NCBI RefSeq assembly: GCF_008642295.1
Contig: NZ_CP029190.1
Coordinates: 6,865,501 to 6,929,500, forward strand
From: Streptomyces venezuelae
Lineage (GTDB): Bacteria; Actinomycetota; Actinomycetes; Streptomycetales; Streptomycetaceae
Length of the DNA stretch: 64,000 nt
Direction of reading: 5' to 3'
A program made the translations under genes and the position numbers. Under the pieces are notes generated by a model, which was not told where the DNA came from, searched no databases, and saw only the letters and a program-made list of their open reading frames with translations. Positions 24,293 to 52,525 of the stretch are shown here, one piece after another (the stretch's first letter is position 1; each line of letters opens with the position of its first letter).

Positions 24293-24306
24293 TGTAACAG
24301 GTTCTA
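24293..24306. promoter_or_regulatory. KstR-type operator before the FadE26-like gene
   Basis: TGTAACAGGTTCTA fits the mycobacterial KstR consensus TNNAACNNGTTNNA at every fixed position and keeps the GTTCTA half of the best sites. It lies 49 bases before the GTG start. The same consensus occurs before the echA19-like gene at 52512. Confidence 0.7.
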
Positions 24307-24354
24307 CTCTGTGCGCCGCCACCGCAGCACCGCAGCCAGCCTTACGGAGGGGCC

Positions 24355-25545
24355 GTGCACCTCGAATACACGCCTGAGCAGCAGCAGTTGCGCGCCGAGC
24401 TGCGTGCCTACTTCGCCGAGCTCGTGCCGGACGACGTCTACGAGCGGTACCAGGACCCGGCGGCACAGAAGCGGTTCTACCGGGAGACCATCCGCAGGCT
24501 CGGCGCCGACGGGTGGCTCGGCGTCGGATGGCCGAAGGAGTACGGCGGGCGCGGGATGTCCCCGATGGACCAGTTCATCTTCTTCGACGAGGCCGCTCAG
24601 GCCGTCGTACCGCTGCCGCTGATGGCGCTCAACACCGTGGGCCCCACGATCATGCAGTTCGGCACCGAGGAGCAGAAGGCCTACTTCCTGCCCCGCATCC
24701 TCTCCGGCGAGATCGACTTCGCCATCGGCTACAGCGAGCCCGACGCCGGCACCGACCTCGCCGCCCTCAAGTGCCGGGCGGTGCGCGAGGGCGATGAGGA
24801 GACCGGCAGCTACCTCGTCAACGGGCAGAAGATCTGGACCACCAACGGCGACACCGCCGACTGGGTCTGGCTGGCCGTGCGCACCGACCCCGACGCGCCC
24901 GCCCACAAGGGCATCACCATGCTCCTGGTCCCCACCTCCGACCCGGGTTACTCCTGCACCCTCATCAACACCCTCGCCTCACACGACACCACCGCCAGCT
25001 ATTACGAGAACATCCGGGTCCCCGCGAGCCGCCGCGTCGGCCCGGAGAACAAGGGCTGGCGGCTGATCACCAACCAGCTCAACCACGAGCGGGTCACCCT
25101 GGCCGCGCACGGCACCATGGCGATCCGGGCCCTGCACGACGTCCAGCGCTGGGCCGCCGGGACCAAACTCGCCGACGGCCGCCGGGTGATCGACCTTGGC
25201 TGGGTGAGGGGCCGGCTCGCGCGCACCCACACCCGGCTCGACGCCATGAAGCTGCTCAACTGGCAGATGGTGAACGCCGTCCAGGACGGCACCCTCACCC
25301 CGCAGGACGCCTCCGCCGTCAAGGTCTACGGCTCCGAGGCCCGCCGCGATGCCTACGCCTGGCTGATGGAGGTCGTCGGCGCGGCGGGCCCCCTGAAGGA
25401 CGGCTCCGCCGGAGCCGTCCTCCACGGCGAACTCGAACGCGGCTACCGCAGCGCCGTCATCTTCACCTTCGGCGGCGGCAACAACGAGATCCAGCGCGAG
25501 ATCATCTCCTGGATCGGCCTGGGCATGCCCCGCGTCCGCCGCTGA
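24355..25545 (+). CDS. Acyl-CoA dehydrogenase, FadE26/ChsE4-like
   Basis: 396 residues, GTG start after ACGGAGGGG. ACAD signatures: AIGYSEPDAGTDLAAL (flavin/substrate loop), QKIWTTNGDTADWVW, NQLNHERVTL, and FGGGNNEIQREIIS near the C-terminus, where FAD is bound. By recall it resembles M. tuberculosis FadE26 (ChsE4) along its whole length, including MDQFIFFDEAA and NTVGPTIMQFGTEEQK. That enzyme forms an alpha2beta2 heterotetramer with FadE27 and oxidises cholesterol side-chain CoA esters. No partner gene is adjacent or elsewhere in the window. A KstR-like box in its promoter supports a steroid role. A terminator overlaps its stop codon. Confidence 0.85.
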   Translation: MHLEYTPEQQQLRAELRAYFAELVPDDVYERYQDPAAQKRFYRETIRRLGADGWLGVGWPKEYGGRGMSPMDQFIFFDEAAQAVVPLPLMALNTVGPTIMQFGTEEQKAYFLPRILSGEIDFAIGYSEPDAGTDLAALKCRAVREGDEETGSYLVNGQKIWTTNGDTADWVWLAVRTDPDAPAHKGITMLLVPTSDPGYSCTLINTLASHDTTASYYENIRVPASRRVGPENKGWRLITNQLNHERVTLAAHGTMAIRALHDVQRWAAGTKLADGRRVIDLGWVRGRLARTHTRLDAMKLLNWQMVNAVQDGTLTPQDASAVKVYGSEARRDAYAWLMEVVGAAGPLKDGSAGAVLHGELERGYRSAVIFTFGGGNNEIQREIISWIGLGMPRVRR

Positions 25546-25578
25546 CCGGGCCGGCCGGCCGGCGGGCCGGCCCGGTCA
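25543..25578. terminator. Bidirectional terminator between acyl-CoA dehydrogenase and methyltransferase genes
   Basis: A perfect 14-bp stem, TGACCGGGCCGGCC (25543-25556) with 25565-25578, has an 8-base loop. The left arm begins at the TGA stop of the acyl-CoA dehydrogenase gene, and the right arm ends 15 bases from the end of the convergent methyltransferase gene. Confidence 0.8.
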
Positions 25579-25592
25579 GCCCGCTCGGCCGG

Positions 25593-26336
25593 TCAGGCGC
25601 GGCAGCGGAACATCTCCAGGGGCGGGTGCGCGACCAGGTCCGCCCAGAACTCCTCGCCGAACTCACGGATACCGGCTTCGGACACCTGGAGCGGAACCCA
25701 CTCCACCGCACTGAACCCGGCCGCCTGCAGGCACTTCTCGTAGACATCGCGGCGCGGGGCCGAGCTGATGATGGTGATCGGCTCCGGCTCGAGGAGAGCG
25801 GTGACCCGTACCCGCGTACCCGTCTCGATCTCCTCCTCGACCGGCTCGCAGAGGAACCCGTAGGTGTCCAGGGAGGCGCAGTCGAACCCGTAGTCGGGCT
25901 TCTGGGCGAGCACGAAGAACTCCCCGCCCGGCACCAGGCTCCGGTGGATGTTGCGGCACATCCGCTCCATCGCCGCGATGTCCTCGGCGTAGTTGAGACA
26001 CTGCACGCCCAGCGCGATGTCGAAGCGCCGTTCGAAGGGGCGCAGTTCGCCCACGTCCCCGACCTCGTACTGCACACCCAGCGGCTCGCGCTGCTCGATC
26101 TCCTGGGCGGCGGCGATCATCTCGACGGAGATGTCGACCCCGAGGACATCCGTGGCCCCGCGCCGCTTGAACTCCCTGCTGTAGAAACCGGTTCCGCACG
26201 CCAGGTCGAGAACCGACCTGCCGGTCACGTCCCCGACCATGCCGAGGAAGCTCGGCACCTCACCGAAACGCGTCAGCGGCAGGGCCTTGAACCCCTCGAA
26301 CGCCTCGCCGATCCCGTCGTACTGCTGCCCGCTCAT
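25593..26336 (-). CDS. Class I SAM-dependent methyltransferase
   Basis: 247 residues from ATG 26336 (MSGQQYDGIGEAFEGFK); a longer in-frame start at 26477 would swallow the promoter. Motif I SVLDLACGTGFYSREFKRRGA, GVDISVEMIAAAQEIE, then QYEVGDVGELRPFERRFDIALGV. The start pattern and motif spacing match the methyltransferase at 10615-11376 and ToxA-like enzymes that methylate small heterocycles or acids. No partner genes. It diverges from a secreted peptide gene over a 244-base gap that holds a half-site of the TCTGA-N7-TCAGA operator at 26432. Confidence 0.8.
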   Translation of the reverse strand: MSGQQYDGIGEAFEGFKALPLTRFGEVPSFLGMVGDVTGRSVLDLACGTGFYSREFKRRGATDVLGVDISVEMIAAAQEIEQREPLGVQYEVGDVGELRPFERRFDIALGVQCLNYAEDIAAMERMCRNIHRSLVPGGEFFVLAQKPDYGFDCASLDTYGFLCEPVEEEIETGTRVRVTALLEPEPITIISSAPRRDVYEKCLQAAGFSAVEWVPLQVSEAGIREFGEEFWADLVAHPPLEMFRCRA

Positions 26337-26580
26337 GGGGCTCCCCCTTCGGTACGTCGTGCCTCGTCCGGCACGTGCGGAAAGTCTGCGCCGCCGGTCT
26401 CCGGCCGCCGTATTGGCAGATAGCACAAGAATCTGACGGGGCGTCGCTCGTATCACCCAACACTCCGGATGTCGCACTCGGGCGGGTGACCTCCCGTGAC
26501 CACATGATCATTCGCTCAATGGGCAGGGCGGACCGCACGAGTCGGCGAACGAACGAGCAGCAAACGCGGAGTGGATGTGA

Positions 26581-26796
26581 GTGGACGTGAGTGGTAGGTC
26601 CGTGCGGTGGGGGGCGACGGCCGGCATCGCCGTCGTCATGGCTGCGGGGCTCCCCGCCGGGGCGGCGCAGGCCGATGACATCACCGTCATCCACGCGCCC
26701 GGCCTCACGCTGATCAGACACCTGGAGCTCGACGACCCCATGGAGGACGTGCTCGAACACACCCTGAACTTCGGCAACGGCCCCAAAGGGGACTGA
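26581..26796 (+). CDS. Small secreted peptide, unknown
   Basis: 71 residues, GTG start (a second GTG two codons on is possible). VSGRSVRWGATAGIAVVMAAGLPAGAAQA is a Sec signal peptide with an AQA-type cleavage site near residue 31, leaving an acidic mature peptide of about 40 residues (DDITVIHAPGLTLIRHLELDD). No cysteines, so it is not a chaplin or lantibiotic-like peptide. It is followed after 21 bases by the MpaB-family gene and then the TPR kinase; the three may be co-transcribed. Similar short secreted peptides occur in streptomycetes without known role. Confidence 0.5.
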   Translation: MDVSGRSVRWGATAGIAVVMAAGLPAGAAQADDITVIHAPGLTLIRHLELDDPMEDVLEHTLNFGNGPKGD

Positions 26797-26817
26797 ACCT
26801 CCTCGTACGATGGACCG

Positions 26818-27708
26818 GTGGGGACCGCGAGCGACGCCGACCCCGGGCTCTACGGGCCGGCGTCCGTGACCTGGCAGTGCCACGGCGATCCGATGATGTG
26901 GATCGCCGGAGTCCGTGCGCTCTACCTCCAGGCCCTGCACCCCCGGGCCGTCCGCGGAGTGCTGGCCAACAGCGACTTCCGGCAGGACACCTGGGGCCGG
27001 CTGCTGCGCACCGCCGACTTCGTCGGCACCCTCACCTACGGCACCACGGAAGCCGCCGAACAGGCCGGAGCCAGGGTCCGGAAGATCCACCGGACCCTGT
27101 CCGCCACCGATCCGGCCACCGGCGCGGCCTTCCCGCTGGACGACCCCGAGCTCCTCCTCTGGGTCCACTGCGCACAGATCGACTCCTTCCTGCACGTCCT
27201 GCGCCGCTCCGGGGTCCCGCTCACCCCCGCCCAGGCCGACCGCTACGTCGACGAGAACCGGGTCAACGCCCGACTGGTCGGCCTCGACCCCGCCGAGGTG
27301 CCCGCCACCACCGCCGAGCTCGCCGGTTACTTTGAGAAGGTCCGCCCGCAGCTCGCCGCCGGAGCCGATGCCGCCGACGTCGACGCCTTCCTGCGCCGGC
27401 CGCCCGTACACCCGCTCCTCGCGCCCGTCCGGGCCGTGCTGTGGCGGCCCCTCGCCGCGCTCGCGTACGGATCGCTGCCCCCGTATGCGCACCGGCTGTA
27501 CGGCCGGCCCGCACTCGCCCCGCGCAGCGTCACCCGCCGCCTGCGCCTCACCGGGCGCTTGCTGCGCAGCATTCCCGCAGGTCTGCGCTGGCAGCTGCCG
27601 CCAGGTCACATCTTGAAAGCGATGCGTCGCCTGGGCCCCACCAGCCGCCCCTCGACGTACACACTGCGCAGAGCGGCGGCCATACTGGACGGGCCGGGGA
27701 GGGCATGA
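26818..27708 (+). CDS. MpaB-family (DUF2236) oxygenase-like protein
   Basis: 296 residues, GTG start. The family pattern is clear: GPASVTWQCHGDPMMWIAGVRALYLQALHPRAVRGV at the N-terminus, then FRQDTWGRLLRTADFVGTLTYG, and LLLWVHCAQIDSFLH, containing the His residues proposed to bind haem in MpaB/latex-clearing relatives. MpaB of Penicillium cleaves a farnesyl side chain; bacterial members are mostly uncharacterised. No signal peptide. It ends 34 bases before the kinase gene. Confidence 0.8.
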   Translation: MGTASDADPGLYGPASVTWQCHGDPMMWIAGVRALYLQALHPRAVRGVLANSDFRQDTWGRLLRTADFVGTLTYGTTEAAEQAGARVRKIHRTLSATDPATGAAFPLDDPELLLWVHCAQIDSFLHVLRRSGVPLTPAQADRYVDENRVNARLVGLDPAEVPATTAELAGYFEKVRPQLAAGADAADVDAFLRRPPVHPLLAPVRAVLWRPLAALAYGSLPPYAHRLYGRPALAPRSVTRRLRLTGRLLRSIPAGLRWQLPPGHILKAMRRLGPTSRPSTYTLRRAAAILDGPGRA

Positions 27709-27742
27709 GCGCACAGCACGACAACGGGGGCGGCACCAGGAG

Positions 27743-29998
27743 ATGGCGGAGAGCAGACTGATCCATGGCCGTTACCGGTCACTCGACCTGATCGGCCGGG
27801 GCGGTATGGGCGAGGTGTGGCGGGCCCGCGACGAGTCGCTCGGCCGCCATGTCGCGGTCAAATGCCTCAAGCCGCTCGGTCCGGAACAGGATGCCCATTT
27901 CACCCAGGTGCTGCGGGAACGCTTCCGGCGCGAGGCGCGGGTGGCGGCCTCCCTCCAGCATCGCGGTGTCACCGTGGTCCACGACTTCGGTGACGAGAGC
28001 GCCTCCGGCGGCATGCTCTTCCTCGTCATGGAACTGCTGGAGGGGCGCAACCTCAGCCAGCTGATGGAGGACAACGGCCGCCGCCCGCTGCCGGTGGACG
28101 TGGTCGTGGACATTGCCGAACAGGTCGCCGCCGCCCTCGCCTACACCCACGAACAGGGTGTGGTGCACCGGGACCTCAAGCCCGCCAACATCATGCGGCT
28201 GACCGACGGCACCGTGAAGATCTGCGACTTCGGCATCGCCCGCCTCGCCCACGACATCGGATTCACCGCCAAACTCACCGGCGGCGGCATGGCCATGGGC
28301 ACCCCGCACTACATGTCCCCCGAGCAGATCGCGGGCGGCGAGGTCGACCACAGCAGCGACCTCTACTCGCTGGGCTGTGTGCTGTACGAGATCGCCACCG
28401 GAGCCCCGCCGTTCGACCTCGGCGACTCCTGGTCCGTGCTGGTCGGCCACCGCGACACCCCGCCCGTGCCGCTGCGCGAGCACCGGCCCGAGCTGCCCGA
28501 GCACTTCGAACGGGTGGTGCTGGACCTGCTCGCCAAGCGGCCGGAGGACCGGCCCGCCGACGCCCGGCGGCTGCACACCCGGCTGGCGGAGGCCCGCCGG
28601 GGCCCCCGGGCCACGGCGGCGCAGGCGCCCGCCCTGCCCGCCTGGGCCCACGGGATGACCGCCGGCCGCAAGGCGGGCCTCCAGGCACGCCCGGGCAGCG
28701 GCACCTGGGCGGTCCTGACCGGCTCCTGGACCGCCGCCCTCCCGGCCCCGGCCGCGATTCCCGGGCCCGGTCCCGACCCCGGTTCCGGGCCCGGTTCCGG
28801 CCCGGGCCCAGTTCAGGCGCCGGTCCCGGCCGTGGGCCCGGGCCCGGCGCCCGCCTTCCCGACGGGCCACGGCCACGGCCCCGGCCCGGCCCGGCCCGAC
28901 GCCGCCGAGGACCCGCGCCTCACCGCACCGTACGGAGTGCCCCGCGGCCTCGGCCCGGACCACCCCGACACCCTCACCGCCCGCTACGAGGCCGCCGCAG
29001 CCCTCAGCCGGGCCGGCCGCCCCGCCGACGCGCTGACCGAGTACCGGGAGGTCGCCCGGATCCGCGACCGGGTCCTCGGCGCGGACCACCCCGACAGCCT
29101 GGCCGTACGCCAGGAGATCGGGTACGTCCTGGGCCAGCTCGGCCGCTACCAGCAGGCCCACGACGTGTACGCGGGGGTGCTCGCGGCCCGCGAGCGCAGC
29201 ATGGGAGCCGAGCACCCCGACACCCTGCTCTGCCACCACAACCTGGTCTGCACCCTCGGCCGCCTCGGCCGGCACGCCGATGCCCACCGGGCCGCCGGCG
29301 CGGTGGCCGACGCCCGCGCCCGGGTGCTCGGCCCCGACCACCCGGACACCCTGCTGACCCGCTACGAGGCGGCCTACGCCCTGGGCCAGCTCGGCTGCTG
29401 GGACGAGGCCCTGGAGGGGTACCGCCAGGTCGCCGCCGCCCGCGAACGCAGCCTGGGCCGCGACCACCCCGACACCCTGGCCGCCCGCTACGAGGTCGGC
29501 ATAGCGCTGGGCCGGCTCGGCCTCGGCCCCGAGGCCCTGGACCTGTTCCGGTCGCTGGTTCGCGACCGCACCCGGGCCTACGGCGCCGCCGACCCCGAGA
29601 CCCTCCGCGCCCGCCATGTCCTCGGCGTCAACCTGGGCCGGCTCGCCCGCTGGGAGGAGGCCCTGGCCGAGGCCCGGGAGGTCGGGGCGCTGCGCGCCAA
29701 GGTGCTCGGCGCCGGACACCCCGACACCCTGGTGAGCCGCCGCGAGGTCGCGGTCGGCCTGGGCTGGCTCGGCCGCTGGGAGGAGGCGCTGCCGCTGTAC
29801 CGGGAGGTCGCCGGGGTGCGGGACCGGGCGCTGGGCGCCGACCACCCGGACACCCTGGACGCGCTCGGCGACGAGGCGTACTGCCTGGAACGCCTGGGCC
29901 TGGCCGCGGAGGCCGCCGCGCTCCGGGACCGCATCGCGGACCTCCGCGGCCAGGGCTTCGCCTACGGCAGCGCGCTCCCGCCGGCCGTGGGCGCCTGA
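27743..29998 (+). CDS. Ser/Thr protein kinase with C-terminal TPR array
   Basis: 751 residues. An active Hanks-type kinase occupies ~8-275: IGRGGMGEVWRA, Lys40 in VAVKCLKP, catalytic loop VHRDLKPANIM (Asp144), Asp162 in CDFGIA, and GTPHYMSPEQ. A ~110-residue linker rich in Gly and Pro follows. The C-terminal ~340 residues are eight 42-residue kinesin-light-chain-type TPR repeats with the core DHPDTL. There is no membrane segment or PASTA domain, so it is cytoplasmic and probably docks partners through the TPR array. Substrates unknown. Weak upstream spacing (AGGAG directly before ATG) suggests moderate translation. Confidence 0.88.
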   Translation: MAESRLIHGRYRSLDLIGRGGMGEVWRARDESLGRHVAVKCLKPLGPEQDAHFTQVLRERFRREARVAASLQHRGVTVVHDFGDESASGGMLFLVMELLEGRNLSQLMEDNGRRPLPVDVVVDIAEQVAAALAYTHEQGVVHRDLKPANIMRLTDGTVKICDFGIARLAHDIGFTAKLTGGGMAMGTPHYMSPEQIAGGEVDHSSDLYSLGCVLYEIATGAPPFDLGDSWSVLVGHRDTPPVPLREHRPELPEHFERVVLDLLAKRPEDRPADARRLHTRLAEARRGPRATAAQAPALPAWAHGMTAGRKAGLQARPGSGTWAVLTGSWTAALPAPAAIPGPGPDPGSGPGSGPGPVQAPVPAVGPGPAPAFPTGHGHGPGPARPDAAEDPRLTAPYGVPRGLGPDHPDTLTARYEAAAALSRAGRPADALTEYREVARIRDRVLGADHPDSLAVRQEIGYVLGQLGRYQQAHDVYAGVLAARERSMGAEHPDTLLCHHNLVCTLGRLGRHADAHRAAGAVADARARVLGPDHPDTLLTRYEAAYALGQLGCWDEALEGYRQVAAARERSLGRDHPDTLAARYEVGIALGRLGLGPEALDLFRSLVRDRTRAYGAADPETLRARHVLGVNLGRLARWEEALAEAREVGALRAKVLGAGHPDTLVSRREVAVGLGWLGRWEEALPLYREVAGVRDRALGADHPDTLDALGDEAYCLERLGLAAEAAALRDRIADLRGQGFAYGSALPPAVGA
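28957..29965 (+). repeat. Eight 126-base tandem repeats encoding TPR units
   Basis: The GACCACCCGGACACC-type core recurs exactly every 126 bases (28958, 29084, 29210, 29336, 29462, 29588, 29714 and 29840). The units encode 42-residue TPRs; units 3 and 7 vary the first residue (EHPDTL, GHPDTL), unit 2 has DHPDSL and unit 6 is ADPETL. The constant phase means copy number could change by recombination without frameshift. Confidence 0.85.
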
Positions 29999-30106
29999 TC
30001 CCCGGTCGATCATGAACCGGTCATCTGAGTACCCGTACTCAGGCATGCGGCGGCCCGTGGAACCAGGATGGGGTGCCGGGGTATCTCACCGAGGGGGACG
30101 GCAGGC

Positions 30107-31039
30107 ATGGATGTGACGGTGGCGGAACACGGCAGCGGTCGCGCGGCGCTCAGACCGCTGGTCCGGCCCGCCGGCGTGGGCGCCCTGCTCGGCCTCGGAT
30201 GGCTGCTGCTCCTCGTCCTGCCCTGGGACTCCGACGACCTCTGCCGGAGCGAGGAGCCCTGGGGCTGCCTGGGGGTGGGTCTGCTGCTGCTCGGCACCGT
30301 ACCGGCCGCCGCCGCCCTGCTGGGATGGGGGCTGCTGCGGATCGCCGGGGTGCGCCCCGCCTGGCGGGTGGCTGCCGCGGGCGCGCTGCTGGGAGTGCTG
30401 GCGGCCGTCCTGTGGTCCCGGGCCTCCGGCGGGACCCCCGGGGGCACGGTGGCGATGCCGCTCCTGCTGGCCGCGGCGTACGCGGTGGCGGCGGCCGTGG
30501 CGCTGCCCGGTGCCGGATCCCTCCGGCGCTGGGGGGTGCTCGCCGCCGCCGTCCTGCTGCTCTGGCCGTTGTCGGGCGTGCTCGGCTCGCAGCGCCTCGC
30601 CGAGGGCAGGACCGCGGAGCTGGCCGGTTCCCCCGTCCCGCTGCTGGCACCCGAGGTGGACGGCTACCGGATCCACTTCGCCTCGGGCGGGAAGCACACC
30701 GACACCTTCCGCTACCTGCTGCTGCCTCCATCGGTGCAGACCGGTGCCGCCGACCGGGAGGAACACGGGATCTGGGTCACCGTCGCACCGCCCGTCGCCG
30801 GATTCGCACCCCCGGGTGTCTGCGAGGTCGACATGACCTCCGGCCGCCTCGACGCCGCTCCGTGCGAACAGGTCGCCCCGGAGACCTGGCGCTCGTCGAG
30901 AAACGGCAACACCACGTACATCGCCCGGCGCCAGGGCGTCATCGTGGCCCTGTCCACCATCGGCCCGCGCGTCCCCGACCGTGACCTGCGGGCCATCGCC
31001 GATTCGCTCGCGGTGCGCAGCCCCGGCTTCTTCGGCTGA
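30107..31039 (+). CDS. Putative membrane protein with extracytoplasmic domain
   Basis: 310 residues from ATG 30107; an in-frame ATG at 30068 is less likely. Four hydrophobic segments lie in the first ~165 residues (VGALLGLGWLLLLVLPW, VGLLLLGTVPAAAALLGWGLL, a segment from VAAAGALLGVLAAVLW, and LLAAAYAVAAAVAL/GVLAAAVLLLWPLSGVLG). A ~130-residue domain follows that should face outside (VDGYRIHFASGG, GIWVTVAPPVAG, GNTTYIARRQGVIVALSTIG). I do not recognise the family. It may be co-transcribed with the following oxidoreductase gene, 47 bases on. Confidence 0.55.
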   Translation: MDVTVAEHGSGRAALRPLVRPAGVGALLGLGWLLLLVLPWDSDDLCRSEEPWGCLGVGLLLLGTVPAAAALLGWGLLRIAGVRPAWRVAAAGALLGVLAAVLWSRASGGTPGGTVAMPLLLAAAYAVAAAVALPGAGSLRRWGVLAAAVLLLWPLSGVLGSQRLAEGRTAELAGSPVPLLAPEVDGYRIHFASGGKHTDTFRYLLLPPSVQTGAADREEHGIWVTVAPPVAGFAPPGVCEVDMTSGRLDAAPCEQVAPETWRSSRNGNTTYIARRQGVIVALSTIGPRVPDRDLRAIADSLAVRSPGFFG

Positions 31040-31086
31040 GCCGGAGGAGCCCTGGCCCGCGGGCCGCCGCCGTGTTACCAAGAGCC

Positions 31087-32688
31087 ATGACGAACTGGAG
31101 TGCCGGGAGGGCCCGGGGATTCGCGCGGGACGTGTACGACGCCGTCATCGTCGGCGGTGGCCACAACGGTCTGGTCGCGGCGGCCTATCTGGCCCGCGCC
31201 GGGCAGTCCGTCCTGGTGCTCGAACGGCTCGGGCACACCGGCGGTGCCGCCGTCTCCACCCGCCCGTTCCCGGGCGTGGACGCGCGGCTGTCCCGCTACT
31301 CCTACCTGGTCTCGCTGCTGCCGGCGAAGATCGTACGGGAGCTGAAGCTGCGGTTCGCGGTCCGCGAGCGCACGGTCTCCTCGTACACCCCCGCCGTCCG
31401 GGACGGGCGGCCCACCGGCCTGCTGGTCGGCGGCGGCGAAACCCGGACCAGGGAGTCCTTCGTCCGGCTGACCGGCTCGGACCGGGAGTACGAGCGGTGG
31501 CGGGCCTTCTACGCGATGACCGCGCGGGTCGCCGAACAGGTCTTCCCCACGCTCACCGAACCCCTGCCCTCCCGGGCCGCCCTGCGGGAGCGGATCGGGG
31601 ACGAGACGGCCTGGCGGACCCTGTTCGAAGAACCCCTCGGACGGACCATCGAGGAGCGGTTCACCGACGACCTGGTCCGGGGCGTGGTGCTCACGGACGG
31701 CCTGATCGGCACCTTCGCCGACGCCCATGACCCCTCGCTGGCCCAGAACCGCTGCTTCCTCTACCACGTGATCGGGGGCGGCACCGGGGACTGGAACGTA
31801 CCGGTCGGCGGTATGGGTGCCCTGACCGATGCACTGGCGGAGGCCGCCCGGTCGGCCGGCGCCGAGATCGTCACCGGCCACGAGGCCGTACGGATCGACA
31901 CCGACGGGGTCACCGCCGCCGAGGTGACCTTCCGTACGGCGGTCGGCGAAGGCCGGGTGACCGGGCGGCGGGTGCTGGTGAACGCCTCGCCCCGGGACCT
32001 CGCCGGTCTGCTGGGCACCGCCCCGCCGCGTCCCGCCGAGGGCGCCCAGCTGAAGGTCAACATGCTGCTGCGCCGGCTGCCCCGGCTGAAGGACACCTCG
32101 GTCGACCCGCGGGAGGCCTTCGCGGGCACCTTCCACATCGGCGAGGGGTACGCCGAACTCGCCCGGGCCTACGGGCAGGCGGCGGCCGGGGAACTGCCCT
32201 CCGCCCCGCCGTCGGAGATCTACTGCCACTCGCTGACCGATCCGGGGATCCTGGCACCGGACCTGGTGGAGCAGGGGTACCAGACGCTCACCCTGTTCGG
32301 ACTGCACACCCCGGCCCGGCTGTTCGAGAAGCACGCCGGCGGGGCGGCGGAGGCGAAGGAGATCCTGCTGGCGGCCACCCTGGCACAGCTCGACGCACAT
32401 CTGGCCGAGCCGATCGCCGACTGCCTGGCCGAGGACGCGGACGGCCGGCCCTGTATCGAGGCGAAGACCCCGCTGGACCTGGAGCGTGAACTGCGGCTGC
32501 CGGGCGGGAACATCTTCCACCGGGACCTGTCCTGGCCCTACCGGGCGGAGGAGGAGCCGGACCCGGGCCGGTGGGGGGTGGAGACGGAACACCGCACGGT
32601 GCTGCTCTGCGGGGCGGGTGCGGTACGGGGCGGCGGGGTCAGCGGGATCCCGGGCCACAATGCGGCGATGGCGGTACTGGGGCGGTAG
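31087..32688 (+). CDS. Phytoene-desaturase-like FAD oxidoreductase (PYROXD2 type)
   Basis: 533 residues from ATG 31087. Dinucleotide-binding motif DAVIVGGGHNGLVAAAYLARAGQSVLVLE; NVPVGGMGALTDALAEAARSAGAEIVTG is the internal block of carotenoid desaturase/PYROXD2 relatives, and the C-terminal FAD motif is CGAGAVRGGGVSGIPGHNAA. It differs from CrtI enzymes by lacking a neighbouring phytoene synthase. PYROXD2 relatives are of unclear function; a redox reaction on a lipid-like substrate is likely. Confidence 0.78.
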   Translation: MTNWSAGRARGFARDVYDAVIVGGGHNGLVAAAYLARAGQSVLVLERLGHTGGAAVSTRPFPGVDARLSRYSYLVSLLPAKIVRELKLRFAVRERTVSSYTPAVRDGRPTGLLVGGGETRTRESFVRLTGSDREYERWRAFYAMTARVAEQVFPTLTEPLPSRAALRERIGDETAWRTLFEEPLGRTIEERFTDDLVRGVVLTDGLIGTFADAHDPSLAQNRCFLYHVIGGGTGDWNVPVGGMGALTDALAEAARSAGAEIVTGHEAVRIDTDGVTAAEVTFRTAVGEGRVTGRRVLVNASPRDLAGLLGTAPPRPAEGAQLKVNMLLRRLPRLKDTSVDPREAFAGTFHIGEGYAELARAYGQAAAGELPSAPPSEIYCHSLTDPGILAPDLVEQGYQTLTLFGLHTPARLFEKHAGGAAEAKEILLAATLAQLDAHLAEPIADCLAEDADGRPCIEAKTPLDLERELRLPGGNIFHRDLSWPYRAEEEPDPGRWGVETEHRTVLLCGAGAVRGGGVSGIPGHNAAMAVLGR

Positions 32689-32810
32689 GCCGGGCCGGGC
32701 CGGGAAGCCGCGCCGGGCGGCGCGGCGCTGCTCGGCGGAAAACCGGTGGAACGGCGTCGCCGTGCGGCTTACCGTGCTGCCTCATACGTCGTCGAGTAGA
32801 AGGCAGGCCT

Positions 32811-32914
32811 GTGTACACCCTGTGAGTCACCCGAGAGCTGATCGGTCGCGCGTCGCGCATCTGCGCGCCGTGCTGCTTCCTGCTGCGGATTTCTCACTGA
32901 AACCGGTGTACACC
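32811..32914 (+). promoter_or_regulatory. Repeated GTGTACAC palindromes upstream of the DUF1062 gene
   Basis: GTGTACACC occurs at 32811-32819 and 32906-32914, 95 bases apart, each followed by a TGTG element. The second copy abuts the GTG start at 32916. A protein bound there could block both RNA polymerase and ribosome access. The rest of the 227-base gap shows nothing further. Confidence 0.4.
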
Positions 32915-32915
32915 T

Positions 32916-33476
32916 GTGCTCAACACCTGGGTGGTCACTCCCACCTGCCTGCCCCTTGTCCGCCGTCGTTGCCCCGCGTGCCGGTCCGGCCGCTTCCGGG
33001 CGAGCGGCAAGTTCCGCGTCAACGCAAACCACAAGGCGCTCGACGCCTGGCTCCTCGTCCTCTGCACCGGATGCGGGGACACGGCGAAGCTCACGGTCTT
33101 CGAGCGGGCTCACGTCCGCTCCGTCCGCCCGGAGCTGCTGGACCGGCTGCACGACAACGACCACGGCCTGACCGCCGAGTTGCTCCAGGACCCGGTCCTG
33201 CAGCGTCGCAACCGCATTGCCCTCGACTGGGACGGTGCCTGGCGGCTGGACACCGGCGGCGACACTGGCGGCTCGAACCCCTCGGACCACGAGGTGATCG
33301 ACGTCTCGGTCCGTTTCGCGGCCCGGATACCGGTCCGGCCGGTCCGGCTCATCGCCGAGGGGTGCGGTCTCACCCGGGCCGAGGTCGATCGGCTGATCGC
33401 GGAGGGGAGTCTGGTCTCGGCGGTCCGGCTGCGCGCCAGGCTCTCCGGTGACTTCACCTTCGTGCTCAAGCGCTGA
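32916..33476 (+). CDS. DUF1062 protein with zinc-ribbon-like cysteines
   Basis: 186 residues, GTG start. RRRCPACRSGRF and LVLCTGCGDTAKLTVFER give two CxxC pairs about 40 residues apart, a zinc-ribbon-like pattern. A middle helical part (RPELLDRLHDNDHGLTAELLQD) and a C-terminal S4-like part (RVDR-type helices in GLTRAEVDRLIAEGSLVSA) follow. This is the DUF1062 layout; the biochemical role is unknown, though nucleic-acid binding would fit both parts. The gene stands alone, ending at a strong terminator. Confidence 0.72.
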   Translation: MLNTWVVTPTCLPLVRRRCPACRSGRFRASGKFRVNANHKALDAWLLVLCTGCGDTAKLTVFERAHVRSVRPELLDRLHDNDHGLTAELLQDPVLQRRNRIALDWDGAWRLDTGGDTGGSNPSDHEVIDVSVRFAARIPVRPVRLIAEGCGLTRAEVDRLIAEGSLVSAVRLRARLSGDFTFVLKR

Positions 33477-33489
33477 TTTCGCGTCAACT

Positions 33490-33529
33490 CCCCCTTCCGC
33501 GACCTGAACCGACAGCTCGCGGAAGGGGG
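33490..33529 (+). terminator. Terminator after the DUF1062 gene
   Basis: A perfect 13-bp stem CCCCCTTCCGCGA (33490-33502) pairs with 33517-33529 across a 14-base loop, 13 bases after the stop codon. The downstream secreted-protein gene starts 70 bases later, so it must have its own promoter in that short gap. Confidence 0.8.
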
Positions 33530-33599
33530 GATGTCACACCCACGGGATAGCGTGTGCGCGACTGCCTCGACCACTCAACTACCTTTGTGGAGAAGGAAC

Positions 33600-34028: not shown

Positions 34029-34046
34029 CCGCGCCGGGCTGTCGGA

Positions 34047-45003: not shown

Positions 45004-45119
45004 ACCTCCCAAGTAGCCTGCGTCCCAGCAGGATTGACGCCCCCACACTCATGCAGGCGGGCCGGCGGTATGTCAACATCCCGTTTGGTATCCACCCGCC
45101 GCCGGCCCGGTCCTGCGGG

Positions 45120-46019
45120 TCAGCGATCCCGCAGGGTCCTGGCGAGGATGCGGAGCGGTGCGAGGGTGCCGTAGCCGATGTCGGTACGCAGGGCCGCCGG
45201 TCCGGCCCGTTCGACGAGGGCCAGCTGGTGGGACATCAGCTCCAGCATGGTGCGGCCCACCCGCCGCAGCCCGGGATCGGCGTACCGGACCACATCGGCG
45301 GCTGCCGCGAGCGCGGTGCGGGCCAGAGAGCACTCGGCGGCGAGCAGGGCCCGCACGCCCGGGGTGTCGCGGGCCTGCTCCAGGTCGGTACGGTCCACCC
45401 CGTGCGCCGCCAGCCGCTCCTGCGGCAGGCACAGCCGGCCCTCCGCGAGGTCCCCGGCCAGGTCGGCGAGGAAGTCCACGCGCTGCGCGGCGTCCACGAA
45501 CCGCCGCCAGGCCGCACCCTGGGCCTCGTCCGGCCCGCCGGGGTACTGGAGTCCGGTGAAGACCACGATGCCCGGCCAGGCGTAGGCGTCGAGGTACTCC
45601 TGGAAGTCCTGTTCGGCGGCGAACCCGGCGAACCCGGCCTCGGCCGTGGCCGCGCCCGTCAGGAAGGCCTTCACCCAGGTGTCGGGCAGCCCGCGGACCG
45701 AGACCGCGTGGGCGTACGCGCGCAGGACCGGGTGCTCGGCGTGCCCGGTGGCGAGGGCGGACTCCACCTGCCCGGTGAGGGCGGCGAGCCGCTCGGCCCG
45801 CTGCTGCGGGGAGCCGGTTTCGGCAGTGTCGTCGACCAGGTTCATCAAGGCCAGCCCGGCGGTCAGCCAGGGGACCAGGGGAGGTGCGGCCAGCAGGCGC
45901 AGCGCGAGGTAGGGGGCCTTCTCGCGGCGCAGCACCCGCCGGGCGGCGGCCGTGTAGTCGGCGCGGCGGGCGGGGTCGGTGATCTCGGCCGCGGCAAGGG
46001 TGCGGCGCCAGCTGGGCAC
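45120..46019 (-). CDS. Squalene/phytoene synthase-family protein
   Basis: 299 residues from GTG 46019, preceded by GAGGAG; the longer frame to 46052 lacks such a site. Trans-prenyl head-to-head synthase fold: ALMNLVDDTAETG gives the first acidic motif (altered from the usual DExxD), and VDFLADLAGDLAEGRLCLPQE the second (DxxxDxxxGRxxLP). It may condense two farnesyl or geranylgeranyl diphosphates or a variant substrate. No other hopanoid or carotenoid genes are close, and the first motif is atypical, so activity is uncertain. Confidence 0.72.
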   Translation of the reverse strand: MPSWRRTLAAAEITDPARRADYTAAARRVLRREKAPYLALRLLAAPPLVPWLTAGLALMNLVDDTAETGSPQQRAERLAALTGQVESALATGHAEHPVLRAYAHAVSVRGLPDTWVKAFLTGAATAEAGFAGFAAEQDFQEYLDAYAWPGIVVFTGLQYPGGPDEAQGAAWRRFVDAAQRVDFLADLAGDLAEGRLCLPQERLAAHGVDRTDLEQARDTPGVRALLAAECSLARTALAAAADVVRYADPGLRRVGRTMLELMSHQLALVERAGPAALRTDIGYGTLAPLRILARTLRDR

Positions 46020-46062
46020 GGGGTGGGCTCCTCGGGGTGATCGGCGGCCCACGCTACCGGCC

Positions 46063-46887
46063 CTATTCGAACGGCAGTACCTCGGCCTCCCGGAGCCGTC
46101 GCAGGGTGAGGTACTCGTGCAGCAGCCGGCCCACCATCGCCCCGCCGTAGACCACGAACCCGACGCCGACCAGCCAGGACTGCACCACCAGCAGGGTGCC
46201 GAACGGGCCGTAGGTGACGGCGTTGGAGGCGATCAGGGGGGAGAACACCAGCTGGGAGAAGATCCGCAGGCCGAGCAGGCCGAGGCTGGTGGCGACTGCT
46301 CCTGGCAGCAGGGCCCGCCAGCGGACCCGGCCGCCGAGCAGCATCCGCTGGGAGCCCCAGAAGAACAGGCAGGTGCCGAGGAGGTCGCCGACGGCGCCTG
46401 ACACCGTGCCGAGGCCGCTGCGGGAGGGAGCGGGGATGAGGACCAGCAGGGCGAGGTAACAGACCAGCAGGGCCAGCCAGATGACATGCCGCCACATGGT
46501 GTGCCAGCGGGCGGTGGACAGGTCCCAGACCTTCTCGTACCCGGTCTGGACGGCCGAGCCGAAGGTCAGCCCGAACACGGCGAGGAGGGCCAGGCCGAGG
46601 GCGGTGGTCCGCTCCAGCGCGAGGTCGGCCGCACCGAAGAGCATCTCGATCTGGGCCCGCGAGGAGGCCGTGACCCCCAGGGCCTGGCCGAGCCAGCGGC
46701 CGAAGTTCTCCCCGCTGCCGGGTGCCGCCGCGGCCACCACGACCAGCAGGGGTACCAGGGTCAGGAAGCCGAGGGCCGCGAAGCCCATGGCCCTGTGCAT
46801 CAGTTCGATCTCCCGGCCGCGGCTCCAGGCCAGCCCGGCGGGGGAGGCCTGGAGCCGGTCGTGCAGCCGCCGGTGGGTCGAGGTCAC
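46063..46887 (-). CDS. YihY/BrkB-family membrane protein
   Basis: 274 residues, GTG start. About six membrane segments (AALGFLTLVPLLVVVAAAAPG, LGLALLAVFGLTFGSAVQTG, VIWLALLVCYLALLVLI, LLGTCLFFWGSQRMLLGG, LLPGAVATSLGLLGLRIFSQL, FGTLLVVQSWLVGVGFVVYGGAMVG). The family was once called ribonuclease BN in error; it is now seen as an integral membrane protein of unknown role, possibly a transporter. It lies 43 bases upstream of the prenyl synthase gene on the same strand. Confidence 0.8.
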   Translation of the reverse strand: MTSTHRRLHDRLQASPAGLAWSRGREIELMHRAMGFAALGFLTLVPLLVVVAAAAPGSGENFGRWLGQALGVTASSRAQIEMLFGAADLALERTTALGLALLAVFGLTFGSAVQTGYEKVWDLSTARWHTMWRHVIWLALLVCYLALLVLIPAPSRSGLGTVSGAVGDLLGTCLFFWGSQRMLLGGRVRWRALLPGAVATSLGLLGLRIFSQLVFSPLIASNAVTYGPFGTLLVVQSWLVGVGFVVYGGAMVGRLLHEYLTLRRLREAEVLPFE

Positions 46888-46991
46888 ACCGGTGCCCTAC
46901 CCGGCACCCGCCGGCCCGCCCCGGCGCCCCGCCCCAAGTGCGCCCGAAGGGGTGGCGGGCCCGGACCCAACGGGTGGCGCGGCCGGGTCGG

Positions 46992-48302
<1,311 letters not shown>

Positions 48303-48325
48303 GGCCCCTCCCGGATTCCCGACCG

Positions 48326-48339
48326 ACCGATCATTCGGT
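48326..48339. promoter_or_regulatory. PaaR-like operator before paaK
   Basis: ACCGA-TCAT-TCGGT (equivalently ACCG-N6-CGGT) matches the outer halves of the TetR-type PaaR site known from Corynebacterium (ACCG-NNCGNN-CGGT) but lacks its central CG. It is centred about 30 bases upstream of the paaK start on the minus strand. A second palindrome, ACTCG-TT-CGAGT, at 48382-48393 lies nearer the divergent hydrolase gene. Confidence 0.5.
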
Positions 48340-48415
48340 AGACGAACTCAGGTTGCCCGAGCCCGCCCGAAGAAATCAATAACTCGTTCGAGTGGTTCCT
48401 CGGCATGATGGCCGC

Positions 48416-49264
48416 ATGCCGATCTTCACGACATACGACGGAACGGAACTCTCCTACCGGACCACGGGGGAGGGCGAGCCCCTGGTGTGCCTGCCGGGCG
48501 GGCCCATGCGGGCCGCCGAATACCTCGGCGACCTGGGCGGGCTCGCGGCCACCCGGCAGCTGATCCTGCCGGATCTGCGGGGCACCGGGGACTCTGCGGT
48601 CCCCGCCGACCCCGCCACCTACCGGGTGGACCGTCAGGTCGCGGATGTCGAGGCCCTCCGCCGCCACCTGGGCCTGGACCGGATGGACCTCCTCGCCCAC
48701 TCGGCCGGCGCCCTGCTCGCCCAGCTGTACGCCGCGGCGCATCCGCAGCGGCTGCGGCGGCTGGTGCTGGTCACCCCGAACGCGACGGCCGTCGGCCTGC
48801 TGGCCACCGCCGAGGACCGGCTTGCGGCGGTCCGGCTCCGCGCCGGGACGGAGCCGTACGACACGGCCGCGTCCGCCTACGCCCGGTTCCTGGCCGGAGA
48901 GACCGTGGACGACGCCCTCTGGGAACTGATCGAGCCGGTGTTCTACGGCCGCTGGGACGAGACGGCCCGGGCGCACGCCGCGGCGGGCGACCGGCAGCAG
49001 AACGAGCCGGCCGCGGACGTGTACGCCGGCCCGGGCGCCTTCGACCCGCCCGCCACCCGCGCCGCGCTCCGTACGCTGACGGCCCGGGTCCTGGTCCTGT
49101 CCGGGGAGTACGACGGCAACCCCCGCCCGGAGCTCGCCGACCGCCTCGCCGCACTGTTCCCGAACGGCACCCGGGACACCCAGCCGGGGGCCGGGCACTT
49201 CCCCTGGCTGGACGATCCGGAGTGGTTCGCCGCCCGGGTGGAACGCTTCCTCGCCGCAGCCTGA
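48416..49264 (+). CDS. Alpha/beta hydrolase (proline-iminopeptidase-like)
   Basis: 282 residues from ATG 48416. LVCLPGGPMRAAEYLGDL holds the GGP oxyanion motif of the prolyl-iminopeptidase branch, LILPDLRGTGDS the conserved strand, and LLAHSAGALLAQL the nucleophile elbow. VLVLSGEYDGNPRPEL and AGHFPWLDDPEWF supply the acid and His. Cytoplasmic. Diverges from paaK; a palindrome (48382-48393) lies 22 bases before the start. The substrate may be a peptide or ester. Confidence 0.8.
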   Translation: MPIFTTYDGTELSYRTTGEGEPLVCLPGGPMRAAEYLGDLGGLAATRQLILPDLRGTGDSAVPADPATYRVDRQVADVEALRRHLGLDRMDLLAHSAGALLAQLYAAAHPQRLRRLVLVTPNATAVGLLATAEDRLAAVRLRAGTEPYDTAASAYARFLAGETVDDALWELIEPVFYGRWDETARAHAAAGDRQQNEPAADVYAGPGAFDPPATRAALRTLTARVLVLSGEYDGNPRPELADRLAALFPNGTRDTQPGAGHFPWLDDPEWFAARVERFLAAA

Positions 49265-49340
49265 GCCCGCCGCTGCCTGAGCGCGGGCGCGGGGCCCGGC
49301 GTACCGTCGGAAGCGGGACCCGGCGAAGGGAGGCCCGGAG

Positions 49341-50747
49341 ATGTTCTCGGGCCGGGACCGGGCGGTCATCGCAGCCGCCTCCATCTCGATGCTGCTCGTT
49401 CAGATGGACTGGTTCGCCCTCAACCTGATGCTGCCCGTGATCGCCCGGGACTTCGGCACGCCGACCACCGATCTGCAATGGCTGGTCAGCGGCTACATGC
49501 TGACCCTCGGTGCGTTCATGATCATCGGTGGCAGGACGGCGGACGTGCACGGCAGACGCACGGTCGCCATCTGCGGGCTGACCGGCTTTGCCGTGGTCTC
49601 CGTGCTGTGCAGCGCGGCGCAGAACCTGCCCTGGCTGGTCGCCGGCCGGGTGGTCCAGGGAGTCACGGCCGCCCTCGTCTTCCCGGTCGCCGTGGCCGTG
49701 GTCACCTCCCACTTCCGCGACGCCCGGCAAGGCCGGGCGGTCGGCACCGTCCTGGCCTTCAGCGCGATCGGCACGGCCCTCGGCCCCTTCGTCGGCGGGG
49801 CGTTCGCCGAACACGTCAGCTGGCGTGCGGTCTTCCTGCTGAACGTACCCTTCTGCGCGGCGGCGATCGTGCTCCTGCTGCGCTTCGTCGCCGACACCCG
49901 CGACGAGCAGGCCGGCCGCGGCCTGGACCTGCCCGGGGCGGTCACCGTCGCCGGCGGCCTGACCGCGATCATGCTGGCGGTGGACCAGGGCGCCGGCTGG
50001 GGATGGGCCTCGCCGGCCACCCTGGCCTGCTGGGCAGCGGGGATCCTGCTGCTGGCGGTCTTCCTGGTCATCGAGCGCCGGACCGCCGAACCGGTGCTGG
50101 ACCTCGCCCTGCTGCGCAACGGGCCGTTTGTGACGGTCACCCTGGCCGGCTCGGTGTCCAACATCGTCTACTGCCTGGTCGCCGTGCTGTCCGCGCTCTA
50201 CCTCCAGCAGGCCCGCGGGCTCTCCCCGCTGGAGTCGGGGATCGTGTTCCTGGCCCTGTCCTGCGGCGCGGGCGCCGCCAGCTACTGGTCCGGCCACCTC
50301 GCCCGGCGGTGGCGGCCGGAGGTGCTGATGGCGACCGGGATGCTGCTGAGCGGTCTCAGCCTGCTCGTCCTCACCTGGACCACACCGATCGCCCTGTACA
50401 CGGTCGTCTTCGCCGTCGTGGGCCTCGGCCTCGGCCTCGGCTGGGCGCTGACCCAGGTCGCCACCCAGTCGTACGTACCGGCAGGCCGGCTGGCCGCCGC
50501 CTCCGGACTGGTGCTGACCTCGCTGGTGCTGTTCGGCGCGATGGCCGTGGCCGTGGCCACGTCCGTGCTCGAAGTGCTGAGCGGCTCGGCCGAGCGGGCC
50601 GCGTCCGACGGGCCCGCGATCGAGTCCGTACTGCGGGCGGCAGCCGCCCTGGCCCTGGCCGGGGCGGCTGCGCTGCTGCCACTGGTCCGTGCGCACGGCG
50701 TACGGGCCACCGCCTCGGACGACGGGATTCGGACCCCGGCCCCGTAA
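49341..50747 (+). CDS. MFS drug/proton antiporter, DHA2 family
   Basis: 468 residues, about 14 membrane helices, the DHA2 (EmrB/QacA) layout. Early motif MDWFALNLMLPVIARDFG and motif A-like GGRTADVHGRRTVA after helix 2; GTVLAFSAIGTALGPFVGGAF is motif C of drug exporters. RBS GGGAGGCCCGGAG. It probably exports a toxic or secondary metabolite in exchange for protons. No regulator or biosynthetic gene flanks it; the acyl-CoA synthetase gene converges 12 bases downstream. Confidence 0.85.
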   Translation: MFSGRDRAVIAAASISMLLVQMDWFALNLMLPVIARDFGTPTTDLQWLVSGYMLTLGAFMIIGGRTADVHGRRTVAICGLTGFAVVSVLCSAAQNLPWLVAGRVVQGVTAALVFPVAVAVVTSHFRDARQGRAVGTVLAFSAIGTALGPFVGGAFAEHVSWRAVFLLNVPFCAAAIVLLLRFVADTRDEQAGRGLDLPGAVTVAGGLTAIMLAVDQGAGWGWASPATLACWAAGILLLAVFLVIERRTAEPVLDLALLRNGPFVTVTLAGSVSNIVYCLVAVLSALYLQQARGLSPLESGIVFLALSCGAGAASYWSGHLARRWRPEVLMATGMLLSGLSLLVLTWTTPIALYTVVFAVVGLGLGLGWALTQVATQSYVPAGRLAAASGLVLTSLVLFGAMAVAVATSVLEVLSGSAERAASDGPAIESVLRAAAALALAGAAALLPLVRAHGVRATASDDGIRTPAP

Positions 50748-50759
50748 CCGCGCAACGGG

Positions 50760-52388
50760 TCAGCCGGCCGTGCCGTCCGCCTCCGTTGCCACCGCCTTCG
50801 CCCAGCGGTAGTCCGCCTTGCCGCTCGGGGAGCGCTGGATCGACGGGGAGATCACCAACTGGCGGGGAATCTTGTACCCGGCCAGCCGGGTCCGGCAGTG
50901 GCTCTGGATCTCGTCCAGCGTCGGCTCCGCCGCGCCCGGCCGGACCTGGACCACGGCGGCCACATGGTTGCCCCACTTTGCGTCCGGCACGCCCGCGACC
51001 AGCGCGTCGTACACGTCCGGATGCGACTTCAGGGCCTGCTCGACCTCCTCCGGATACACCTTCTCGCCGCCCGTGTTGATGCACTGCGAACCGCGCCCGA
51101 GCACCGTGACGATGCCCTTCTCGTCCACCGTGGCCATGTCGCCGAGCAGCACCCAGCGCTCCTCGCCCCGCCGGAAGAAGGTCTCGGCGGTTTTCACCGG
51201 GTCGTTGTAGTAGCCCAGTGGTACGTGTCCGCGCTGGGCGAGCCGCCCCGGCTCGCCCACCGGCACCGGCTCGTGCGTCACCGGATCGATCACCTGAGTA
51301 CGGTCGTTGACCTCCAGCCGGAACCCCTTCTCCGGGCCGGAATCCTCCGTGGCCTTGCCGTTGGACCCGGACTCGGAGGAGCCGAAGTTGTTCAGCAGCA
51401 GCACGTTCGGCACCAGCTCCTGGAACTGGGCCCGCACCGTGTCCGACATGATCGCCCCGGACGAGGAGACGCTGAACAGGGAGGACATGTCGGTGCCCCG
51501 CAGCGGCCCGCGCAAGGCGTCGATCAGCGGCCGGAGCATCGCGTCGCCCACCAGCGAGACGCTGGAGACCTTCTCCTTCTCGATCGTGCGCAGCACTTCC
51601 TCGGGCACGTACTTGCGGTGGATCACGATCCGCTGGCCGTAGTTGAAGCCCACGAACGAGGTCAGCGTGGATGTGCCGTGCATCAGCGGGGGAGTGGGGA
51701 AGAAGGTGAGCCCGGCGCCGCCCGCGGCGACCCGTTCGGCGAGCTCCTCGGGCCGCTTCACCGGCTCGCCGGAGGGCGCCCCGCCGAACAGCCCCGCGAA
51801 GAACAGGTCCTCCTGCCGCCACATCACGCCCTTGGGCATGCCGGTGGTGCCGCCCGTGTAGATGATGAACAGGTCGTCGGCCGAGCGCGGACCGAAGCCC
51901 CGCCCGGCGGATCCGGACGCCTCGGCCTCCCCGAACGGCACGGCCGCCAGGGCCGGCGCCCCGTCCGGGACGGCCCCCACCCGGACCAGGTGCCGCAGCT
52001 TCCCGGTCTGCGGCAGTGCCGCCGCCACCCGTTCGGTGAACTCCCCGTCGAAGACCAGGGCGGCGAGATCGGCGTCGTTGTAGAGGTAGACCAGCTCCTC
52101 CTCCACGTACCGGTAGTTCACATTGACCGGAACCAGCCGGGCCTTGAGGCAGGCGAGCACCGTCTGGAGGTACTCGACCCCGTTGTAGAGGTGCAGGCCG
52201 AGGTGCTCGCCGGCGGTGAGCCCGCTGTCCAGCAGGTGGTGGGCGATACGGTTCGCGCCCTCGTCCAGCTCCCGGTAGGTCAGCCGGCGCTCGGCACCGG
52301 TCCCGGGATGGTCCACGTACACCAGGGCCTCGCGGTCCGGCACCACGTCGACCACCGACTCGAACAGGTCGGCAAGGTTGTACTCCAC
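50760..52388 (-). CDS. Steroid-CoA ligase, FadD19-like acyl-CoA synthetase
   Basis: 542 residues from GTG 52388, with AGGAGGAAC directly upstream; the open frame to 52463 has no ribosome-binding site. ANL motifs: IYTGGTTGMPKGVMWRQEDL, NNFGSSESGSNGKAT, GRGSQCINTGGEKVYPEEVE, SGKADYRWA with the catalytic Lys. By recall it matches M. tuberculosis FadD19 (Rv3515c) along its length, including VNVNYRYVEEELVYLYNDADL and the MWRQEDL block. FadD19 makes the C26/C24 CoA ester of sterol side chains. It diverges from an echA19-like gene, as Rv3515c does from Rv3516. Confidence 0.86.
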   Translation of the reverse strand: MEYNLADLFESVVDVVPDREALVYVDHPGTGAERRLTYRELDEGANRIAHHLLDSGLTAGEHLGLHLYNGVEYLQTVLACLKARLVPVNVNYRYVEEELVYLYNDADLAALVFDGEFTERVAAALPQTGKLRHLVRVGAVPDGAPALAAVPFGEAEASGSAGRGFGPRSADDLFIIYTGGTTGMPKGVMWRQEDLFFAGLFGGAPSGEPVKRPEELAERVAAGGAGLTFFPTPPLMHGTSTLTSFVGFNYGQRIVIHRKYVPEEVLRTIEKEKVSSVSLVGDAMLRPLIDALRGPLRGTDMSSLFSVSSSGAIMSDTVRAQFQELVPNVLLLNNFGSSESGSNGKATEDSGPEKGFRLEVNDRTQVIDPVTHEPVPVGEPGRLAQRGHVPLGYYNDPVKTAETFFRRGEERWVLLGDMATVDEKGIVTVLGRGSQCINTGGEKVYPEEVEQALKSHPDVYDALVAGVPDAKWGNHVAAVVQVRPGAAEPTLDEIQSHCRTRLAGYKIPRQLVISPSIQRSPSGKADYRWAKAVATEADGTAG

Positions 52389-52467
52389 CGTTCCTCCTGA
52401 CCTCTCCATCCAGTGGCGGTCATTAGAGCGCCGCACACCCCAACTGGGAAGGGCGCAGAACACAAAA

Positions 52468-52484
52468 TCTGACTGGGTGTCAGA
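52468..52484. promoter_or_regulatory. TCTGA-N7-TCAGA operator in the fadD19-echA19 intergenic region
   Basis: TCTGACTGGGTGTCAGA with A-rich flanks lies midway between the divergent starts (80 bases from 52388, 65 from 52549). It is the same inverted repeat and spacing as at 38503. A second, KstR-type site lies nearer echA19, so the region may be under two repressors. Confidence 0.6.
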
Positions 52485-52511
52485 AAGCTATTGAACTGCA
52501 CCCGCCCCTAC

Positions 52512-52525
52512 TGCAACCTGTTCTA
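52512..52525. promoter_or_regulatory. KstR-type operator before the echA19-like gene
   Basis: TGCAACCTGTTCTA fits TNNAACNNGTTNNA at all fixed positions and ends 23 bases before ATG 52549. Its right half GTTCTA is identical to that of the site before the FadE26-like gene. In M. tuberculosis KstR controls echA19, fadD19 and fadE26. Confidence 0.7.

Follow-up and report, generated by a model that had tools for sequence, protein, structure and literature searches.

Two 14-bp inverted repeats in a 64-kb window of Streptomyces venezuelae DNA (the whole stretch analysed, positions 6865501-6929500 of the 7.5-Mb chromosome) are very probably, judging from sequence comparison, operators of a KstR-like TetR repressor for sterol side-chain genes. 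The first, TGTAACAGGTTCTA at 24293-24306 on the plus strand, stands before a fadE26-like gene, and the second, TGCAACCTGTTCTA at 52512-52525, also on the plus strand, stands between divergent fadD19-like and echA19-like genes. An earlier note, made from the letters of the window, had proposed both as KstR operators that fit the consensus TNNAACNNGTTNNA exactly, with no other instance in the promoters of the window. The coordinates and the fit of both 14-mers were confirmed, and the two are the sole exact TNNAACNNGTTNNA matches in all 64 kb, where a mean of 0.06 would be expected and where none of 100 dinucleotide shuffles contained two. Four more places match with one mismatch (42779, 48378, 52174 and 62308), of which only 48378 has a called start at most 150 nt downstream of it. 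The operators end 48 bp before the fadE26-like start at 24355 and 23 bp before the echA19-like start at 52549.

Both sites are retained in the orthologous promoters of the closest relatives; loss of the motif there, named in the earlier note as refuting, was not seen. The fadE26 operator is exact in 30/30 promoters (the 30 best of 103 positive genomes), following the pattern TGNAACNNGTTCTA with positions 1, 2, 4-6 and 9-14 invariant and positions 3, 7 and 8 variable. The echA19 operator is present as TGCAACCTGTTC in all 80 loci examined, the best 80 of at least 543 confirmed named loci; 42 are exact and 38 have the last base changed (36 ending in TC, one in TG and one in CG). Background windows of these 80 loci contained no exact and 32 one-mismatch matches among 3382.

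The repressor gene was expected outside the window, and the single KstR-like match in the genome lies 1.66 Mb away (domain match at genome 5229832-5230374, minus strand), with none inside the window. KstR structures match its product at E 3.7e-39 to 6.1e-39, with 43% identity to KstR over 181 aligned positions and a nearly identical recognition-helix region (VALGTLYRYFPSKVHL in the Streptomyces protein vs VAVGTLYRYFPSKVHL in KstR), and at E 1e-20 the protein matches no NCBIfam model other than that of KstR (NF033703). Its own promoter region carries an exact TNNAACNNGTTNNA operator, which is likewise exact in all 30 loci fetched (the best-scoring 30 of 140 positive genomes) and stands in each between kstR and a divergent glycosyltransferase gene. 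The distance from operator to the extrapolated glycosyltransferase start is 53-55 bp in 28 of these loci and 33 and 90 bp in the other two, and a TANNNT box adjoins the operator end on the glycosyltransferase side in 30/30. Because the divergent gene and the box are conserved throughout, the glycosyltransferase may itself be a KstR target. In this genome (L016 10621-13886) it is followed by a methyltransferase gene and then a third open reading frame. A fadE34 gene divergent from kstR was found in none of the 30 loci; a fused acyl-CoA dehydrogenase, presumably FadE34-like, is encoded about 10 kb from kstR in this genome.

Genome-wide pattern searches, with the reversed pattern as control, indicate that the sites do not fall at random; random positions were what the earlier note had named as a possible refutation. 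The loose motif occurs at 29 sites compared to 7 for its reversal, a control we regard as imperfect in that it contains codons rare in such genomes, while the stricter TNNAACNNGTTCTA gives eight strand hits at seven places compared to none. Fifteen of the 29 loose sites are inside called genes and were rejected as targets. The perfect half-site TAGAAC marks seven places, six of which are at kstR-like, sterol or acyl-CoA genes: both window sites, the kstR/glycosyltransferase divergent region, the fused acyl-CoA dehydrogenase gene (~700 codons, with a thiolase-like gene of PRK08256 type after it), a MaoC-like/ADH/SDR operon and the cholesterol oxidase gene, where the exact site is in coding sequence. 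The seventh is inside an sdhA-like gene.

The regulator and the two targets also tend to occur together across the genus. Among 150 genomes, this one included, a KstR-like gene was found in 140 at E 1e-20, as the only match at that threshold in 137. FadE26 occurs in 102 genomes (103 at threshold, G085 having only a 56%-identical relative) and EchA19 in 102, and both are present in 100 of the 104 genomes that have either. Each is found in 101 of 140 kstR-positive and in 1 of 10 kstR-negative genomes, and a protein search of the latter ten returned weak TetR matches only (best E 2.2e-10). The genes lie 7.7 to 620 kb apart in the 84 of 100 genomes that have both on one contig (the 16 with different contigs were left out), with a median of 30 kb and less than 100 kb in 77; in G005, with two copies of fadE26, the distance is that of the nearer one and the other is ~7 Mb away. 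The regulon had been described as dispersed; the two genes are loosely linked and only partly dispersed.

Several observations weigh against this reading. The regulator scores 194.8 bits on NF033703, under the cut-off of 280, and no regulator in the 150 genomes of the genus exceeds that cut-off, such that the suggested search for a KstR orthologue recovered a KstR-like TetR gene that falls short of the model for KstR itself. In a 20-row tree, with midpoint root only and 10 of 17 inner branches open, the regulator is separate from the KstR branch. For these two reasons, score and tree position, the protein is named 'KstR-like'; it should work like KstR, an expectation short of established equivalence. 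The orthologues examined are the closest relatives, and the association of the targets with kstR (p 1.5e-4) comes from a Fisher test that ignores shared ancestry. The kstR-negative genome G071 keeps fadE26, echA19 and the operators, with eight strict-pattern strand hits; its site before the fused-dehydrogenase gene falls at base 455 on a contig, and the assembly may therefore lack the kstR stretch. Strict-pattern counts, made in 30 genomes (10 kstR-negative and 20 kstR-positive), overlap, with 1-3 hits in the nine other kstR-negative genomes and 1-11 in the kstR-positive ones. When hits of the TTCAAC, TACAAC and TCCAAC types are set aside as coding, an assignment checked in this genome only, the nine retain one hit in G010, inside a squalene-hopene-cyclase-like open reading frame (by eye), and one in G050; the kstR-positive G043 and G121 retain none, and G082 and G088 retain only the hit beside kstR.

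The sub-threshold score leaves some room for the sites being true operators of another TetR, a paralogue with the same half-site, and similar recognition helices are found in other TetR proteins (3bjb, L249). The PDB chain 3bjb, a TetR not named KstR, matches the regulator marginally better (E 5.9e-40) than the KstR structures do. Paralogues of KstR in the Actinomycetota (PMC3388012) are TetR proteins with a similar recognition helix. The chain 3bjb may be one example, its segment scoring 122 bits on the KstR model vs 195 for the Streptomyces protein and 330 for the 3mnl KstR segment. That a paralogue reads these sites is nonetheless unlikely, considering the exact operator in the KstR-like gene's own divergent promoter in 30/30 loci, the single match in 137 of 140 positive genomes, the absence of the targets from nine of the ten kstR-negative genomes and a recognition-helix region almost the same as that of KstR.

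Putative promoter elements coincide with both operators. At fadE26, a -10-like TACTCT (24305-24310, plus strand) begins with the last two bases of the operator, and a TANNNT box overlaps the operator end in 30/30 orthologous promoters. At echA19, a putative -35-like TTGAAC (52491-52496, plus strand; first five bases at least 90% conserved, last base ~60%) stands 17 bp before CAACCT inside the operator, and this CAACCT, acting as a -10 box, may be the cause of the invariant operator centre. An operator that partly overlaps the -10 region has been reported for kstR of Mycobacterium (PMC1995591). It could be argued that the 14-mers are promoter elements kept for RNA polymerase and resemble KstR sites by coincidence, given the conserved TANNNT box into which the fadE26 operator runs and the central CT of the echA19 site, invariant in 80/80 and beyond what an operator needs. 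This is very improbable: both arms of the fadE26 palindrome are invariant while positions 3, 7 and 8 vary (n = 30), and the palindrome recurs at the kstR, fused-dehydrogenase and MaoC-like genes and at cholesterol oxidase (exact in one relative, one mismatch here), and marks KstR targets in mycobacteria (PMC1995591). Chance matches, to which the 29 loose genomic matches with 15 inside called genes might point, have a negligible probability, refuted by the expectation of 0.06 per window and by positional conservation in relatives.

A KstR-like repressor is the explanation we favor. The FadE26/ChsE4-like acyl-CoA dehydrogenase (24355-25545, plus strand) has its best PDB match over residues 1-396 in 4x28_A (E 4.7e-132), which we take to be the ChsE4/FadE26 structure, the PDB table naming it only as acyl-CoA dehydrogenase. 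The next called gene is a methyltransferase-like open reading frame on the opposite strand, and no partner-subunit gene for the lone FadE26 was called adjacent to it; a search of the genome with the N-terminal half of the fused protein (E 1e-4) gave 18 matches, itself included, none adjoining fadE26. The EchA19-like enoyl-CoA hydratase (52549-53349, plus strand) has its best PDB matches in the EchA19 structures 6wyi (E 6.3e-76) and 4f47 (E 1.4e-75) and is above the cut-off of NF005864, with 371.6 bits on the EchA19 model NF051848, under its cut-off of 400. Downstream on the plus strand are a DUF35/ChsH2-type OB-fold protein (53401-54366; PF01796 and PF12172, best PDB match ChsH2 of 6ok1, E 6e-10) and two thiolase-fold proteins, at 54366-55433 (NF005924, PRK07937, above cut-off in the frame 54279-55433) and 55430-56596 (NF006180, PRK08313, above cut-off, with SCP2-thiolase relatives in the PDB), which we take to be Ltp4-like and Ltp3-like, respectively. 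The divergent acyl-CoA synthetase (50760-52388, minus strand) scores 651.6 bits on NF005863 (PRK07798; cut-off 543) over the stretch 50898-52400 and has no PDB match at E 1e-60; it is presumed FadD19-like by gene order, which to us resembles the fadD19/echA19...ltp4-ltp3 region of M. tuberculosis. According to a review (PMC6678751), FadD19 and Ltp3-Ltp4 act in removing sterol side chains that are branched at C24, and ChsE4-ChsE5 in the first desaturation.

As proposed, the KstR-like protein would bind each promoter as a dimer, in overlap with the -10 box at fadE26 and, probably, with the -10/start region at echA19. The side-chain genes would stay repressed until the dimer is released by a steroid-CoA intermediate, and the substrate would probably be C24-branched plant sterols. 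For the comparison with Mycobacterium, Rv3504 is taken to be fadE26. The KstR regulon there shares the operator TnnAACnnGTTnnA, its overlap with the -10 region and a site at kstR itself (Kendall 2007, PMC1995591). The same paper lists positive sites at Rv3503c/Rv3504 and Rv3515c/Rv3516, the shared targets being Rv3504 and the region between Rv3515c and Rv3516, and the other strand of the Rv3503c/Rv3504 site (TAGAACGTGTTACA) differs from the window fadE26 site at one central position. Unlike in Mycobacterium, the Streptomyces kstR faces a glycosyltransferase gene and not fadE34, the targets are in several loci and this genome has no match to the KshA model. SCO2319 of S. coelicolor is mentioned as a possible KstR orthologue in one sentence of PMC1995591, which names neither operators nor targets for it, and in no other paper of the open-access literature searched; it very likely belongs to the same gene family as the regulator here.

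The cholesterol oxidase is firmly identified (PDB 1coy, E 1.2e-211), and its exact loose-motif site at 379059, the sixteenth that is within coding sequence, falls in signal-peptide codons and was rejected as its operator; the likely operator is TAGAACTCGTTTCT, with one mismatch, before the ATG. In G005, an exact site precedes the ATG of a homologue (named by eye). The pair at 4479161/4479206 (TTGAACNNGTTCAA), whose two palindromes are spaced by 45 bp and precede a gene for a small protein of membrane type (L011 1501-1559), was rejected as a target site and probably belongs to a different regulator. Other Streptomyces have a KstR-type palindrome before an acyl-CoA-dehydrogenase-like gene that follows a paa-like operon (L214 2443-2456 and L217 2548-2561; by eye); this genome showed no exact counterpart.

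The echA19 promoter region contains a second inverted repeat, CTGACTGGGTGTCAG at 52469-52483 (no strand), of the form CTGAC-N5-GTCAG, a possible operator of another regulator. Its arms are exact and its gap to the KstR operator is 28 bp in 80/80 loci, around a variable 5-nt centre, and it was found in 0/30 fadE26 promoters. Genome-wide there are 35 sites compared to 2 for the reversed pattern. A called start is no more than 75 nt away from 23 of the 35, another 4 are in genes and the other 8 are in neither position; the closeness to starts suggests that the reader is a repressor. Three sites are beside KstR sites (window 52469; genome 5240100 and 5245298, L017 4100-4114 and 9298-9312), an arrangement also seen in relatives (L222 and L223). 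The narrower CTGACGNNNCGTCAG is present in 18/18 genomes, including eight kstR-negative ones, 2 to 31 times each (17 here), compared to 0-1 for the reversed pattern. Of the known regulators considered, Mce3R was rejected for now, its operator being reported as non-palindromic (PMC11667970), and BkaR has a differing motif (PMC3920632). The repeat precedes many catabolic genes of lipid or terpenoid type, its neighbours (by eye from protein starts) including LLM-type oxidoreductases, amidohydrolases, synthetases and thiolase-like genes. A dense array at genome 3.18-3.30 Mb (L225-L229), with LLM oxidoreductase-, amidohydrolase-, acyl-CoA synthetase-, acyl-CoA dehydrogenase- and thiolase-like genes (by eye), is possibly a large catabolic region. 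The repeat also occurs 36 bp before the start of a 55%-identical FadE26 relative (L187 385-1587), with an acyl-CoA-dehydrogenase-type match ~1 kb downstream (genome 3623451-3624320).

The KshA model (PF19298, KshA_C) has no match in this genome at E 0.001. Across the genus, 38 of 150 genomes exceed the Pfam cut-off of 23.3 bits; nine do so with more than 280 bits, all carrying kstR, fadE26 and echA19, and 29 with at most ~101 bits, which we read as other Rieske oxygenases. The 'side-chain only' reading is based on KshA, with KstD, HsaC and IpdAB not searched. In a phylum sample, 20 of 198 genomes have a KstR-like match at 1e-20 (8 of this genus, 5 of family f3 and 7 others), and the five above the KstR cut-off are all of family f3. 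These five have TAGAACNNGTTCTA upstream of the KstR gene. Among the seven others, three (family f14, outside the class) have TGCAACNNGTTCTA near the start of the KstR-like gene, inside the frame in L243 if the earliest start is used. Neither the remaining four nor the three paralogue matches of lower score in f3 genomes are closely preceded by an exact site. The origin of KstR has been placed in the ancestor that Mycobacterium and Rhodococcus share (PMC3388012), and 55 of 57 Streptomyces have been reported to lack steroid pathways (PMC4810484).

The biology of KstR is known; new here are the second repeat and the broad occurrence of a KstR-like system across Streptomyces, for the most part in genomes that lack a strong KshA match. 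Text searches of open-access literature, a collection without most subscription papers, brought up no account of a KstR regulon in Streptomyces. The KstR-like gene in 140 of 150 genomes, the operator in 30/30 loci and the family f14 cases allow that sterol sensing may be older and wider than ring degradation. Tentatively, and as a possibility to which we give less than even weight, the genus may share a KstR-like sterol regulon that is for the most part confined to the side chain and in most cases ends short of ring cleavage (e.g., at 17-keto steroids), part of it under a second regulator that reads CTGAC-N5-GTCAG at a fixed distance from the fadD19/echA19 KstR site and also controls many F420/LLM, amidohydrolase, FadD and thiolase catabolic genes. 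The second inverted repeat offers a defined starting point for finding a new regulator, and Streptomyces may be considered for converting plant sterols at the side chain only, which would be of use in obtaining steroid-drug precursors.

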